Source: Paenibacillus sp. BIC5C1
GTDB taxonomy: Bacteria > Bacillota > Bacilli > Paenibacillales > Paenibacillaceae
NCBI RefSeq assembly: GCF_032399705.1
Contig: NZ_CP135922.1
Span: forward strand, 5,084,001 to 5,148,000
DNA: 64,000 nucleotides
Reading direction: 5' to 3'
Both the position numbers and the translations under genes were made by a program. Below the pieces are notes generated by a model. The model was not told the origin of the DNA, ran no database searches, and was given only the letters and a program-made list of their open reading frames with translations. This document shows positions 10,137 to 55,039 of the stretch, piece after piece. The stretch's first letter is position 1; every line of letters starts with the position of its first letter.

Positions 10137-10271
10137 ATGACCTGCTGTGCAGGAATTCTTTTGAAGTTTAGTTTAATCGCGTCCTTCTGATCAGTCAGGC
10201 ACATCAGGTACAATTGATCTGTTTGCCCGTGACTGATAGTGGACTGTACTTGTTACTGTTGTGTTGTAGTT

Positions 10272-10684
10272 AGGAAAGCTTACCGTAAGCCGGGTTCTGT
10301 GCTCTTCGTGGTTCAGACGGGAACTACCCTCCCACCACAAGCGACAATCATCTATCTAGGCCATACATTGCTGCACAGCTCAAGCGACCAACCTAGACAC
10401 ACCTCGGGCTAAGGCTGCCTTCTCTGAAGAGTTGACTGTGTCCCATTAGGTCTTGCTCCAGATGGGGTTTACCAGGAACGAAGTCACCAGCGTTCCTCGG
10501 GGTCTCTTACACCTCGGTTCCATCCTTGCCTGTGCCGGAAAATCCGGCCATCGGCGGTCCATTTCTGTGGCACTATCCTTCAACTCGCGCTGACTGGACG
10601 TTATCCAGCATCCTGCCCTGTGGAGCCCGGACTTTCCTCTCGTGGCAACGAGGCCACCAGCGATTGTCTGTCAAGCTTTCCGAA
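10272..10684 (-). ncRNA. rnpB: RNase P RNA, bacterial type A architecture
   Basis: Catalytic RNA that matures tRNA 5' ends. On the minus strand it begins with GGAAAGCTT, which pairs with AAGCTTTCC at the 3' end to make P1. Conserved blocks seen are GAGGAAAGTCCGGGCTCC, ACAGGGCAG, ACCGCCGATGGCC, GGTAAACCCC, GGAGCAAGACC, TGGCCTAGATAGATGATTG and ACAGAACCCGGCTTA. GCTGGATAACGTCCAG, the GGAGCAAG-CC segment and GCTTGAG match the Escherichia coli type A layout rather than the B. subtilis type B layout. Ends are approximate. A promoter at 10696-10724 directs it. Confidence 0.96.
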
Positions 10685-21874: not shown

Positions 21875-22288
21875 TTACTTTTTAGCAGAGTTCAGATCAG
21901 ATGGTCCAAAAGCCCATGGCAATAGTTCGGCAACTGTAGTCTCCTGAAGATCGCCTTTCATGTTACCCAGAATAACTTTCATATCCGGTTCACACAGTTC
22001 ATACATGACTTGACGACATACGCCGCATGGAGCAATCGGGCCATCTGTATCTCCTACAATGGCAATGGCTTTGAAACTGCGTGGTTGCTTACCTCCTGCA
22101 ATCGCGCTGAACATAGCTGTGCGCTCAGCACAGTTACCTGGCGTGTATGCAGCATTCTCAATATTACAACCATGATGCACATGTCCCTCACTGTCAAGCA
22201 AAGCTGCACCTACACCAAAATGAGAATAAGGCGTATACGCTTTCGTACGTGCCTTAATTGCTTCTTGCATCAACAAACCATTATCCAT
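21875..22288 (-). CDS. cdd: Cytidine deaminase
   Basis: 137-aa homotetrameric zinc enzyme that converts cytidine and deoxycytidine to uridine forms for pyrimidine salvage. Zinc and catalytic motifs are GNCAERTAMF (Cys and the proton-shuttling Glu) and APCGVCRQVMYEL (two Cys). The N-terminus with TPYSHFGVGAAL is standard. I use the ATG at 22288, which has AAGGGAG upstream; a further 13 codons are open but unlike the family. The 294 bp before it holds repeat copy A. Confidence 0.96.
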   Translation of the reverse strand: MDNGLLMQEAIKARTKAYTPYSHFGVGAALLDSEGHVHHGCNIENAAYTPGNCAERTAMFSAIAGGKQPRSFKAIAIVGDTDGPIAPCGVCRQVMYELCEPDMKVILGNMKGDLQETTVAELLPWAFGPSDLNSAKK

Positions 22289-22354: not shown

Positions 22355-22504
22355 TTTGCACTGGCCTCTCCGCTGTCAGAACAACCTTACGATCGCTATT
22401 ATCCCCAGATTTTATTGATTCTCTTTTCCAAAGTGAAAATCCGGGGATAAAGGCGAACGCTTCGCTTCTACAGGTTATTTCTGACCTCTCCGTTATTGTG
22501 CAAA
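22355..22504 (-). repeat. 150-bp palindromic intergenic repeat, copy A
   Basis: Ends TTTGCAC (22355-22361) and GTGCAAA (22498-22504) are exact complements. Moving inward, TCAGAA pairs with TTCTGA and AACCT with AGGTT; the inner stem TATCCCCAGATTTT faces AAAATCCGGGGATA. A small hairpin GCGAA-CGC-TTCGC sits on the right side. It lies between dgkA and cdd, in a stretch with no gene. The same architecture recurs at 48168 and 54858. Strand is set to minus because mismatches in the inner stem become G-U pairs only in minus-strand RNA. Confidence 0.85.
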
Positions 22505-46745: not shown

Positions 46746-48122
46746 TTAATTCTTTTTGCTGCGTACTTCGAAGATGGCAAATTTCAGGTAATGACCTTCG
46801 TCTACACCCAAAATTTGAGGGTGATCCTTACCAGCTGCTTTCCAGTCGATTAAACGTAGCACTTTGCCTGCATCCTCGGCTGCATCCGCAATGGTTTCCA
46901 GGAAGAGATCCGGACGCATGTGGTATGAACAGCTTGCGGTTACGAGATACCCGCCCTCATTCACCAGCTTCATTCCTTGCAGATTGATATCCTTATACCC
47001 ACGGCATGCGCCTTTGACTGCTGATTTCGTTTTGGCAAAGGCTGGTGGATCGAGGATAACCACATCAAATGTTTTACCACCAGCTGCAAGCGCTTTGGAC
47101 GTATCCACTTTCTGTTCGCCAGCACGGGCACGTACGTTACGCTCATCGAGGCCTTTCACCTGCTCACGCAAATATTGGAATGCATCCGCAACGACAAATT
47201 CTACCCGGTCAGTGAAACCATTCAGCTCTACGTTAGTACGTGCACTTTCAATTGCATGCTCTGAGATATCAAGGCATGTTACTTTTTTGGCTCCATATTT
47301 GCAGGCGTTCAATGTGAAGCTACCTGTATGGGAGAAACATTCCAGCACAGTGGCCCCATCCCAATAAGGGAACGTCACAACCTTGCCACTTTTATTCACA
47401 GGAAGCAACTGCTGCGTACCATCCTGCTCAGTCTGTTGGAGCGTAATGCCACTCTTGTACCCCCAACCCTTCATAAGTGGTTCGATGGCTGCACGATTCT
47501 CGCGCTGGTCGAAGAAATACCCTGTCTTTTGGCCTTCCACGATGTCCACCTTAATGAGCAATCCGTTCTCGGTTACCGTGACATGACGCGGGCAATCCCC
47601 GTACAATGGTCCCTTCGTCTGCTCCAAACCTTCCAGTTCACGAATGGATACATCACTGCGTTCATAGATGCCTTCTGGCTGCATCACTTCAATTAGAGCT
47701 TGTACAATCGCTTCACGACAACGGTCCATGCCCAATGTGAGCAACTGAACAACAAGGATGCTGCCAAAACGGTCAACTATCAGTCCTGGCAGGAAATCAG
47801 CTTCCCCATAAACGAGACGGTATGCCTCTCCATCCTGGATAAAACGCTCCCGGTGGCGCAAGCAATCACGGAAACGCGCTGCAAAAAACGCGGTGTCCAT
47901 CTGTTCAAACTCCAAAGGTTGATAGGCCACAACTCGAACCGTGATCTGAGATGCAGGATTATAGTATCCCGTCGCAAGATAGCGACCTTGGTGGTTCAAT
48001 ACGTTGACGAGATCTCCCGGCTCGGGATTTCCTTCAACAGAGGCGATTTCATTGTTATATATCCATGGGTGTGCATGTTCAAGCCGCTTTTTGCGGCTAC
48101 GTTCCAGTGTAACTGATGGCAA
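46746..48122 (-). CDS. Class I rRNA methyltransferase, RlmI type (COG1092)
   Basis: 458-aa SAM-dependent methyltransferase related to RlmI, which makes m5C1962 in 23S rRNA. An N-terminal PUA domain (LERSRKKRLEHAHPWIYNNE and the YYNPASQITVRVV segment) is followed by an EEHEI-like linker and a Rossmann domain with CFSHTGSFTLNACKYGAKKV and VILDPPAFAKTK, GYKDINLQGMKLV. Extra loops (about 235-255 and 325-350) make it longer than Escherichia coli RlmI (396 aa). The start is a TTG at 48122 with GGAAGTG upstream. The target base in this organism is inferred from family only. Confidence 0.88.
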   Translation of the reverse strand: MPSVTLERSRKKRLEHAHPWIYNNEIASVEGNPEPGDLVNVLNHQGRYLATGYYNPASQITVRVVAYQPLEFEQMDTAFFAARFRDCLRHRERFIQDGEAYRLVYGEADFLPGLIVDRFGSILVVQLLTLGMDRCREAIVQALIEVMQPEGIYERSDVSIRELEGLEQTKGPLYGDCPRHVTVTENGLLIKVDIVEGQKTGYFFDQRENRAAIEPLMKGWGYKSGITLQQTEQDGTQQLLPVNKSGKVVTFPYWDGATVLECFSHTGSFTLNACKYGAKKVTCLDISEHAIESARTNVELNGFTDRVEFVVADAFQYLREQVKGLDERNVRARAGEQKVDTSKALAAGGKTFDVVILDPPAFAKTKSAVKGACRGYKDINLQGMKLVNEGGYLVTASCSYHMRPDLFLETIADAAEDAGKVLRLIDWKAAGKDHPQILGVDEGHYLKFAIFEVRSKKN

Positions 48123-48167
48123 GATAGATCCACTTCCTTTAATTTATTGTTCAAAAGATAGGCTTGG

Positions 48168-48318
48168 TGCAAAAGAGACCGCTGCGGTGATGGATTGGAC
48201 TTCGATCGCTGTTGTCTCCAGATTTTTCTGATTCCCTTTCTCAAAAGGGAAAATCCGGAGACAAAGGCGAACGCTTCGCTTCTACAGTTCCAATTCCATC
48301 ACCTCCGCTACGTTTGCA
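48168..48318 (-). repeat. 151-bp palindromic intergenic repeat, copy B
   Basis: TGCAAA (48168-48173) and TTTGCA (48313-48318) close the element. The inner stem TGTCTCCAGATTTT / AAAATCCGGAGACA replaces the TATCCCC / GGGGATA arms of copy A base pair for base pair. The core CGATCGCTGT and the side hairpin GCGAACGCTTCGC are the same as in copies A and C, but the outer arms (GGTGATGGATTGGACT facing AGTTCCAATTCCATCACC) are a different, still complementary sequence. It lies upstream of the RlmI-type gene. Confidence 0.85.
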
Positions 48319-48444
48319 GAATCTCCGTATCTTTTGATTGGGGGTGCGGTAATTGGGTGACCGCTACGATGATAGTTTCAATCGCTGTTATTCCTATGGA
48401 TCGGGCTTTCAATCCCTGTTACGTCGTTGTACAGATGAATCTCA

Positions 48445-54249: not shown

Positions 54250-54642
54250 TTAGCAAAAGCGTCCACCATTCTGTGTAATCATCTCTGCAGCTTGCGGGAG
54301 AGAGTCACTGGATACGGATACGGTCAGCAAGATTTCTTGCTTGGACCTACCTTCAGAGCCAGCATGCGGATCGTCATAAACTTGTCCACCCGACAACATC
54401 TCGGTCTCATCGCTTATAAGGGAAAGTACATTCAGCTCACCACTGAATCCCCCAATCACGGCCATGGTTGAGTTATCAGTGCTCTCATCCGCTCCCGGAT
54501 TTACTGAAGACGATGAGTCATTCAGACTCTCTATACTCAACTGGTTTGGGTGCAGCAATTCCAGCGCTCTGCGTGCAGATTCAGCCTCGGACCAGCTTGT
54601 GAACACTGCTTCGATAATTACTGCAGAGCGATCTTCAGTCAT
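54250..54642 (-). CDS. Hypothetical protein, paralogue 1 of a small pair
   Basis: 130-aa protein without a name I recognise. It begins MTEDRSAVIIEAVFTSWSEA, and has AARRALELLHPNQLSIESL-type helix and strand (SARRALELL), a polar Ser/Asp/Gly-rich middle (about 40-95) and a closing EILLTVSVSSDSLPQAAEMI then NGGRF. The 122-aa gene at 55040 has the same plan and matching ends (DVLLTVVVD, IIEQAGGMI), so the two are diverged paralogues. GGGAG precedes the ATG at 54642, which lies inside the end of the upstream 59-aa gene. Confidence 0.72.
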   Translation of the reverse strand: MTEDRSAVIIEAVFTSWSEAESARRALELLHPNQLSIESLNDSSSSVNPGADESTDNSTMAVIGGFSGELNVLSLISDETEMLSGGQVYDDPHAGSEGRSKQEILLTVSVSSDSLPQAAEMITQNGGRFC

Positions 54643-54814
54643 GAATCTCCCGACCCTGACGACGATTGGCAGCTTCACTTCGGCGCAAAGCCTCTATATC
54701 TTCATGATCTGCAGCTTCGGCGCTGAATTCCACATCCTCATTTTTGGCGGACTGCATTCGCTTCATCTTTTCCGTTTTCGTCAAAATCTTGCCTGGACGT
54801 TCATGTTCTGCCAT
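54635..54814 (-). CDS. Short YfhD-like protein
   Basis: 59-aa acidic/basic hydrophilic protein read directly from the minus strand: MAEHERPGKILTKTEKMKRM, then QSAKNEDVEFSAEAADHEDI and EALRRSEAANRRQGREIHD. The DVEFS...A-x-D...A..R..AA.RRQ pattern resembles YfhD-family small proteins of Bacillales, whose function is unknown. A very strong AAGGAGG lies 9 nt before the ATG. It overlaps the next gene by 8 bp (ATGACTGA), implying coupled translation. Confidence 0.72.
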   Translation of the reverse strand: MAEHERPGKILTKTEKMKRMQSAKNEDVEFSAEAADHEDIEALRRSEAANRRQGREIHD

Positions 54815-54857
54815 CGTTATGTTCCTCCTTCAAATTGTATAAGTTCAACTAAGCGTA

Positions 54858-55007
54858 TTTACACTGGCACTCCGATGACAGAACAACCTTCCGATCGCTG
54901 TTATCCCCAGATTTTTTTGATTTCCTTTCTTAAAAGGGAAAATCCAGGGATAAAGGCGAACGCTTCGCTTCTCCAGGTTTTTTCTGTCCTCTCCGTTAAC
55001 GTGTAAA
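54858..55007 (-). repeat. 150-bp palindromic intergenic repeat, copy C
   Basis: TTTACAC (54858-54864) and GTGTAAA (55001-55007) close the element, against TTTGCAC/GTGCAAA in copy A. ACAGAA pairs with TTCTGT (TCAGAA with TTCTGA in copy A). The inner stem TATCCCCAGATTTT faces AAAATCCAGGGATA; its two imperfect positions are C-A and A-C, both G-U in minus-strand RNA. The hairpin GCGAACGCTTCGC is unchanged. It separates the two paralogous genes. Confidence 0.87.
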
Positions 55008-55039
55008 TGTTTTAGATGAAACTTATATAGATTTTAAAA

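Follow-up and report, generated by a model that had tools for sequence, protein, structure and literature searches.

A dispersed palindrome family of Paenibacillus and related genera, probably mobile, with a predicted structured 5′ leader transcript

Comparison of three intergenic palindromes of Paenibacillus sp. BIC5C1 with their many relatives points to a non-autonomous palindromic mobile element family whose predicted transcript would be a functional structured 5′ leader, a reading to which we assign a probability of roughly 0.62. The three copies, named A, B and C, lie in the window, that is, the whole 64,000-nucleotide stretch analysed (contig NZ_CP135922.1, positions 5,084,001 to 5,148,000). 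Judged by its sequence, the family is a hairpin of ~150 nt with a conserved unpaired core and covarying stems, and on this evidence it appears to be both mobile and constrained. The sequence features of a cis-regulatory leader RNA, namely a conserved covarying structure, sense orientation and a position before the start codon, were all found. Bacterial interspersed palindromes are often classed as parasites, and the single family described here presents two testable faces: one lineage has insertions with a duplicated hairpin, and in others the element evolves slowly at a fixed place in the leader of a core gene.

The first-pass annotation of the window had described three palindromes of 150, 151 and 150 bp with covarying arms, a common core and a side hairpin, and all of the motifs that it quoted were recovered at the positions listed below. 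The end arms are TTTGCAC/GTGCAAA in A, TGCAAA/TTTGCA in B and TTTACAC/GTGTAAA in C; the mid stem is TCAGAA/TTCTGA in A and ACAGAA/TTCTGT in C; and the inner stem is TATCCCC/GGGGATA in A and TGTCTCC/GGAGACA in B. The core CGATCGCT(A/G)T together with GCGAACGCTTCGC is common to all three copies (3/3), among which the mean column identity is 87%. The copies, their arms and the neighbouring genes are as follows.

21875-22288, minus strand: cdd, cytidine deaminase gene, downstream of copy A (NCBIfam)
22355..22504, sense on the minus strand: copy A, 66 nt before the cdd start (sequence, covariance model)
46746-48122, minus strand: rlmI-like 23S rRNA methyltransferase gene (NCBIfam match below the curated cut-off)
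48152..48160: outer arm of B, CAAAAGATA, beyond the limits first drawn (sequence)
48168..48318, sense on the minus strand: copy B, 45 nt before the rlmI-like gene (sequence, covariance model)
48328..48336: outer arm of B, TATCTTTTG (sequence)
54635-54814, minus strand: yfhD-like gene, downstream of copy C (Pfam)
54838..54852: outer arm of C, TATAAGTTCAACTAA, with similar arms in other copies (sequence)
54858..55007, sense on the minus strand: copy C, 43 nt before the yfhD-like gene (sequence, covariance model)
54890..54904, minus strand: conserved core of C, 3′ part on the sense strand, TAACAGCGATCGGAA, placed by eye and conserved in a 72-row alignment
54951..54974, minus strand: conserved core of C, 5′ part on the sense strand, GGAGAAGCGAAGCGTTCGCCTTTA, placed by eye and conserved in the 72-row alignment
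55012..55029: outer arm of C, TTAGATGAAACTTATATA, complementary to TATAAGTTCAACTAA with mismatches (sequence)

The fold and the motifs hold within the 150-bp limits first drawn, but these limits are too narrow for B and C, in which the palindrome extends outward through extra arms; no good outer arms were seen for copy A. Arms of the type TATATAAGTTSAACTAAA / TTTAGTTSAACTTATAT occur in C and in many other copies; as judged by eye, the middle S of both arms alternates between C and G. The palindrome ends are TTGATAAAG.../...CTTTATCAACAAACT. The family unit is about 150-190 bp, longer than the 150 bp first given. The elements had been quoted on the plus strand, which is their antisense; the best-folding form, the one directed at genes, is on the minus strand of the window, and this is the meaningful strand. 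When A, B and C were folded on both strands (copy B as 48168-48317), none of 200 dinucleotide shuffles folded equally well, with z from -3.6 to -5.4.

From the paired changes it had been argued that a fold is kept rather than a sequence. Alignment A3 takes 97 rows from many genera (96 distinct, and including some antisense shadows), was made with the covariance model and is itself fitted to the structure. In it, standard pairs filled 95.6% of the pair cells, compared with 73.0% after shuffling and 33-45% after sliding; the covariation score of 0.541 fell to 0.171 on shuffling and to no more than 0.096 on sliding. In a MAFFT alignment of 26 own-genome copies made from sequence only, two-sided changes were counted in 16 pairs versus 3.2 after shuffling, the structure tested being derived from that same alignment. 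With pairing and covariation exceeding the shuffled and slid controls, the claim that the arms covary and the fold is kept was confirmed. The second half of the argument did not hold, as the sequence of the unpaired core is also conserved from genus to genus and reads roughly GGAG ... GnAGAAGCGnAGCGTTCGCCTTT - stem - AACAGCGATCGGAAG ... CGnAG in 72 rows. The side hairpin GCGAA-CGC-TTCGC is present as described, but some of its bases are, in the consensus, partners of the other arm, so that GCGAA/TTCGC competes with the pairing of CGTTCGCC to that arm and is an alternative to the long fold, not an addition.

The two strands were also compared. The sense strand folded at lower energy than the antisense strand in 72/85 and 83/95 rows, counts in which the copies are not independent and four antisense rows of the 85-row set count against. 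The share of G·U pairs was equal in both predicted folds (220/4073 vs 234/4108, and 290/4785 vs 293/4763), and one inner pair is G·U on the sense strand in 37/81 and 45/84 rows. Without this fixed inner pair, G·U against A·C stood at 68 vs 36 (p=0.002) in one alignment and 83 vs 73 (p=0.47) in the own-genome alignment. By post hoc hand sums, the inner helices without the fixed pair gave 27 vs 4 and 46 vs 21, and the outer helices were about even at 41 vs 32 and 37 vs 52.

A DNA search of the own genome returned 49 match rows (40 of 128 candidates scored), and covariance model R1, built from 26 own-genome copies, returned 129 matches in the 7.08-Mb genome (150 of 2627 candidates scored). Removal of 18 antisense shadows and seven weaker places left about 104 copies, each a sense place scoring 35 bits or more, with A, B and C among them. 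The genome search proposed by the first-pass annotation, for which an absence of other copies would have spoken against a family, thus found many more. At four loci (L026, L028, L029 and L030) an optional ~39-bp hairpin insert (around AGCTTTCTGAAAGAAAGCT) is carried in the side-hairpin region. Three GC-rich tandem copies, ~255 bp apart, precede one gene at L122 (G000:C1:755508-756174). The copy L004 (G000:C1:1488525-1488674) lies ~1 kb before a leuA-like gene (by eye), and the stretch after it (GGGTGGTGCAAC) resembles, by its motif, what we take to be a T-box leader.

Gene positions were taken from a purpose-made ORF caller, with approximate starts. A same-strand gene follows 89 of the 104 own-genome copies, and 70 of these 89 lie 25-130 nt before its start. 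By gap class, 78 copies are tandem sense, 8 tandem antisense, 11 divergent and 7 convergent, and the excess of sense over antisense in tandem gaps (78 vs 8) has p=1.5e-15 with the copies treated as independent. Tandem gaps hold 86/104 copies compared with 121/153 among background gaps from the same stretches (150 bp or longer), and convergent gaps 7/104 compared with 15/153; since the gap types match the background, it is the orientation that stands out and not the kind of gap. By raw counts the downstream starts are clustered, with 51/78 lying within 25-75 nt against 28/78 upstream gene ends; the medians of the two distances (56 downstream, 79 upstream) did not differ (p=0.34). Copy orientation is largely confounded with replication direction: 84/104 copies are co-directional with replication, on the assumption of an origin near base 1 and a terminus at 3.54 Mb, and the lagging-strand genes, with 7 sense vs 3 antisense copies, are too few to separate gene direction from replication direction.

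The genes after the own-genome copies are mixed and share no common pathway. Those checked by profile include eno, purC, purS, carA and argB (NCBIfam) and efp and trpE (Pfam), together with genes taken to be argD (class-III aminotransferase), sdhB (iron-sulfur protein) and fabZ (FabA-like); the remaining downstream names were assigned by eye. Some copies stand between genes inside apparent pur and arg operons. Masking of the Shine-Dalgarno sequence was rejected as the action of the leader, accessibility being unchanged in the predicted folds of 70 copies (0.46 vs 0.46), and on these modelled folds it is unlikely.

Beyond the own genome, the family was found in 26 of the 39 genomes first searched, own included, among them all of the other same-genus genomes (23/23), with a highest per-genome count of at least 79. 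Across the order it is present in 104/149 genomes (own included) and 21/38 genera. A class-wide search with model R2, built from 72 rows, was positive in 40/398 genomes, 38 of them in the order and two, weakly, elsewhere; two of the four loci outside the order resemble the family core. These weak matches, L230 and L236 (G194/G334), have the similar core CTGGAGG...CCGCCTTTA...AGAGCGGCCGTAAG and, to judge from that likeness, are possibly a distant relative of the family. Phages gave no match to the palindrome family, and the plasmid matches were two Paenibacillus cellulosilyticus records. The 20 copies from other genera of the host's family comprised 14 tandem sense, 0 tandem antisense, 3 convergent, 2 divergent and 1 undecided.

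Fixed loci came to light among the genomes with few copies. Thirty loci were read in 22 chosen low-copy genomes, and in genus g30, whose eight genomes have 1-3 matches each, copies precede leuA in seven genomes and icd in five, those before leuA at a distance of 40-51 nt; one leuA and one icd gene were confirmed by profile. An exact-pattern scan found 11 loci, 10 of which are leuA leaders of Paenibacillus species, the hosts including P. alba, P. chondroitinus, P. alginolyticus, P. silvestris and P. phytorum. The gene behind copy A, cdd, is present in 45/45 genus genomes searched, and among the best 30 cdd matches the element is in 19, which have the most similar cdd, and is absent from 11. A ~39-bp hairpin module is inserted in three cdd leaders (G063, G016 and G020) and is polymorphic between orthologous copies. 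The cdd leaders L206, L207 and L208 (G150, G010 and G167) hold 2-3 strong tandem copies ~222 bp apart, with an extra weak copy in two of them.

Sequence identity at the two best-sampled leaders was then set against that of fourfold sites. For leuA (10 species, 45 pairs) the element identity was 0.897, or 0.881 without the scan pattern, against 0.591 for fourfold sites; the element exceeded the fourfold sites in 44/45 pairs, and its flanks had identities of 0.753 and 0.705. For cdd, with 16 of the 19 element-bearing loci compared, the corresponding values were 0.856 and 0.596, the element being higher in 110/120 pairs; the upstream flank had an identity of 0.686, and the downstream flank, at 0.848 with 27% gaps, was alike to the element. 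By these identities the element appears to evolve more slowly than neutral sites, clearly so at leuA, and at cdd in relation to fourfold sites but not to the downstream flank. Because few other copies exist in the leuA-bearing genomes, conversion between copies is a poor explanation for slow evolution at leuA; it could contribute to the similarity at cdd. In a tree of copies, those from leuA (10/10), icd (4/4), G086 (20/20) and G088 (5/5) each formed their own clade. The cdd copies did not form a clean clade, making up 16 of the 21 in a split that also holds five own-genome copies from other loci, and the own-genome copies formed no single clade.

Signs of movement were clearest in genomes of another family, where the element is amplified to 83 (G088), 41 (G107), 44 (G086) and 29 (G100) matches and where 10/24 classified copies of these four genomes lie in convergent gaps. 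In G086, direct repeats above the 99% level of the null were found around 21 of the 26 examined copies (5/6 + 16/20), out of 44 matches. Of these flanking repeats, 14-48 bp long, 18/21 are hairpins by folding, and by eye they resemble transcription terminators. Repeats above the null surrounded 1/6 copies in G088, 1/7 in G107 and 0/6 in G100; they surrounded 2/104 copies in the own genome at the same 99% level, one of the two being a tandem array, and 0/20 copies in other genera of the host's family. With flanking repeats absent or rare outside G086, movement there is inferred from dispersal. By eye, the G088 copies L226, L246 and L249 appear to sit inside the loop of a terminator-like stem. 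At the L247 site of G086, ten relatives were viewed and the shared gene end was readable in eight; the 260 bases that follow lack the element in all eight and hold a single hairpin (by eye) in six, the gene order being common to one side only. No empty site was obtained for the G086 copy L239, as synteny is lost in three close relatives.

A duplicated palindromic target, as for an IS1182-type MITE, is thus present in G086 only. The sole IS1182-type gene over the cut-off in that genome (PF13751; IS1182 by NCBIfam) belongs to an element whose ends are unlike those of the palindrome, which makes this copy an unlikely mobiliser. At locus L317 of G086, an IS1182-type element (236-2000) directly abuts a palindrome copy (2012-2168), a neighbourhood that may reflect a shared taste for palindromes.

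Several other readings were weighed against these data. Template switching in palindromes is a form of DNA-level arm repair, and covariation could arise in this way without selection on RNA; locus-specific outer arms that stay complementary, as in copy B, and the even G·U and A·C counts of the outer helices would suit such an origin. It leaves unexplained the conserved unpaired core, the better folding of one strand, the G·U excess of the inner helices (post hoc) and the slow evolution at leuA, and we consider it very improbable as the source of the covariation. A single-ligand riboswitch or protein-controlled attenuator governing some 100 operons as one regulon would account for the leader position near the start codon, the conserved unpaired core and the many metabolic genes downstream (purC, purS, carA, cdd, argB, leuA and icd). 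Coherent targets and, as judged by Shine-Dalgarno accessibility, an expression platform were not found, however: efp, eno, the rlmI-like gene and others stand downstream without a common pathway, the predicted folds do not mask the Shine-Dalgarno sequence, and copies lie at gene 3′ ends in other lineages, which together make this reading quite unlikely.

Pure parasitism by a MITE with no function at the RNA level, in which the core would be needed by the mobilising enzyme and leaders would be tolerated insertion sites, agrees with the lineage-specific amplifications in G088, G107, G086 and G100, the direct hairpin repeats of G086, the 10/24 copies in convergent gaps of the four amplified genomes, the mixed downstream genes and the lack of a gap-type preference in the own genome. 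The constraint at leuA in a genus whose eight genomes have 1-3 matches each speaks against it, as does the sense bias in tandem gaps, 78 vs 8 in the own genome and 14 vs 0 in other genera; nor is there here the excess between convergent genes that is reported for BOX, RUP and SPRITE (PMC3049150). Parasitism alone is, on balance, an unlikely account. We favour the mobile element with a functional leader, and its proposed course has two steps. A transposase would attach the element by its ends at the base of target stem-loops, as in a branch of the IS1272 model, and sense copies before a ribosome-binding site would be retained because the folded leader acts on the mRNA.

As to what such a leader might do, we suggest, tentatively, that it sets a boundary for mRNA processing or stability, perhaps through a core-binding protein, because the hairpin is self-contained, stands before ribosome-binding sites and between operon genes, and leaves the site unmasked. 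More speculative still is a mobile regulatory RNA, a factor-binding leader transposed before ~100 genes per genome to form a post-transcriptional regulon in Paenibacillus, with few old sites (leuA, icd) in some sister lineages. If the leader does act on mRNA, ~100 genes per genome of this genus, with purine, arginine, central carbon and other functions, would be under a common, unannotated RNA control.

Comparison with known systems gave no established name for the family. Rfam matched only RNase P in the whole window, leaving the palindromes unmatched; the hit is an ordinary bacterial RNase P RNA of class A at 10271-10679 (minus strand, 260 bits). Copy C, searched up to E=1, gave two weak snoRNA matches far below cut-off, and 15 loci with distant copies gave no match, so that Rfam membership was rejected for want of any score above the gathering cut-off. 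The first-pass remark that no named Paenibacillus family with this core was known agrees with this for the window copies and the 15 distant-copy loci, and the literature searches turned up no recognised description of this palindrome family. Of the three identities that had been offered, two are supported, the structured RNA and the non-autonomous mobile palindrome; a bcr1-like repeat applies by analogy only.

REP sequences go with RAYT transposases, and a REP-like GTAG or GGAG followed by a hairpin is readable in some palindrome copies. The own genome has seven IS200-kind Y1 transposase matches (L031-L037), of which L037 has internal stops. A REP/RAYT origin was rejected, since none of these seven IS200-like Y1_Tnp loci (PF01797) holds the exact side hairpin within 1.5 kb (0/7). 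A likeness of the ends to attC was set aside, the attC pattern fitting one of the two arm types only. From the title of a 2004 report by Okstad, bcr1 is said to be specific to the B. cereus group; the present family occurs in Paenibacillus and related genera of the order. The repeats bcr1-bcr18 of the B. cereus group are likewise interspersed; they have other hosts and are set apart from the present family by description only, as far as the available part of PMC3446304 extends. That part calls bcr1-bcr3 MITE-like, places bcr repeats often in UTRs or operon intergenic regions and proposes bcr10 and bcr18 as 5′ UTR RNA elements; the sense-orientation bias and the hairpin repeats of the Paenibacillus family are not among the features it reports for them.

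The BOX elements of Streptococcus pneumoniae are likewise modular: they fold into a stem-loop and can carry an inner module (PMC3049150), whose counterpart here is the ~39-bp hairpin. One BOX copy lies beside T boxes before trp (PMC3049150), and one copy here precedes a T-box-like leader of leuA. BOX, like RUP and SPRITE, is reported to be enriched between convergent genes (PMC3049150), whereas the Paenibacillus family shows no such excess in the own genome and is mostly sense to tandem genes. A parallel in target choice is IS1272 of the IS1182 family, which also uses stem-loops; unlike it, the palindrome family has no internal transposase. According to PMC5678879, IS1272 recognises its stem-loop targets by structure and not by sequence, and in one branch of the published model the complete stem-loop is duplicated, the ends having joined at its 5′ foot. 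IS1272 replaces its target, whereas the palindrome copies of G086 are flanked by duplicated hairpins, and these hairpin repeats would represent many natural cases of a product that has so far been a branch of the IS1272 model.
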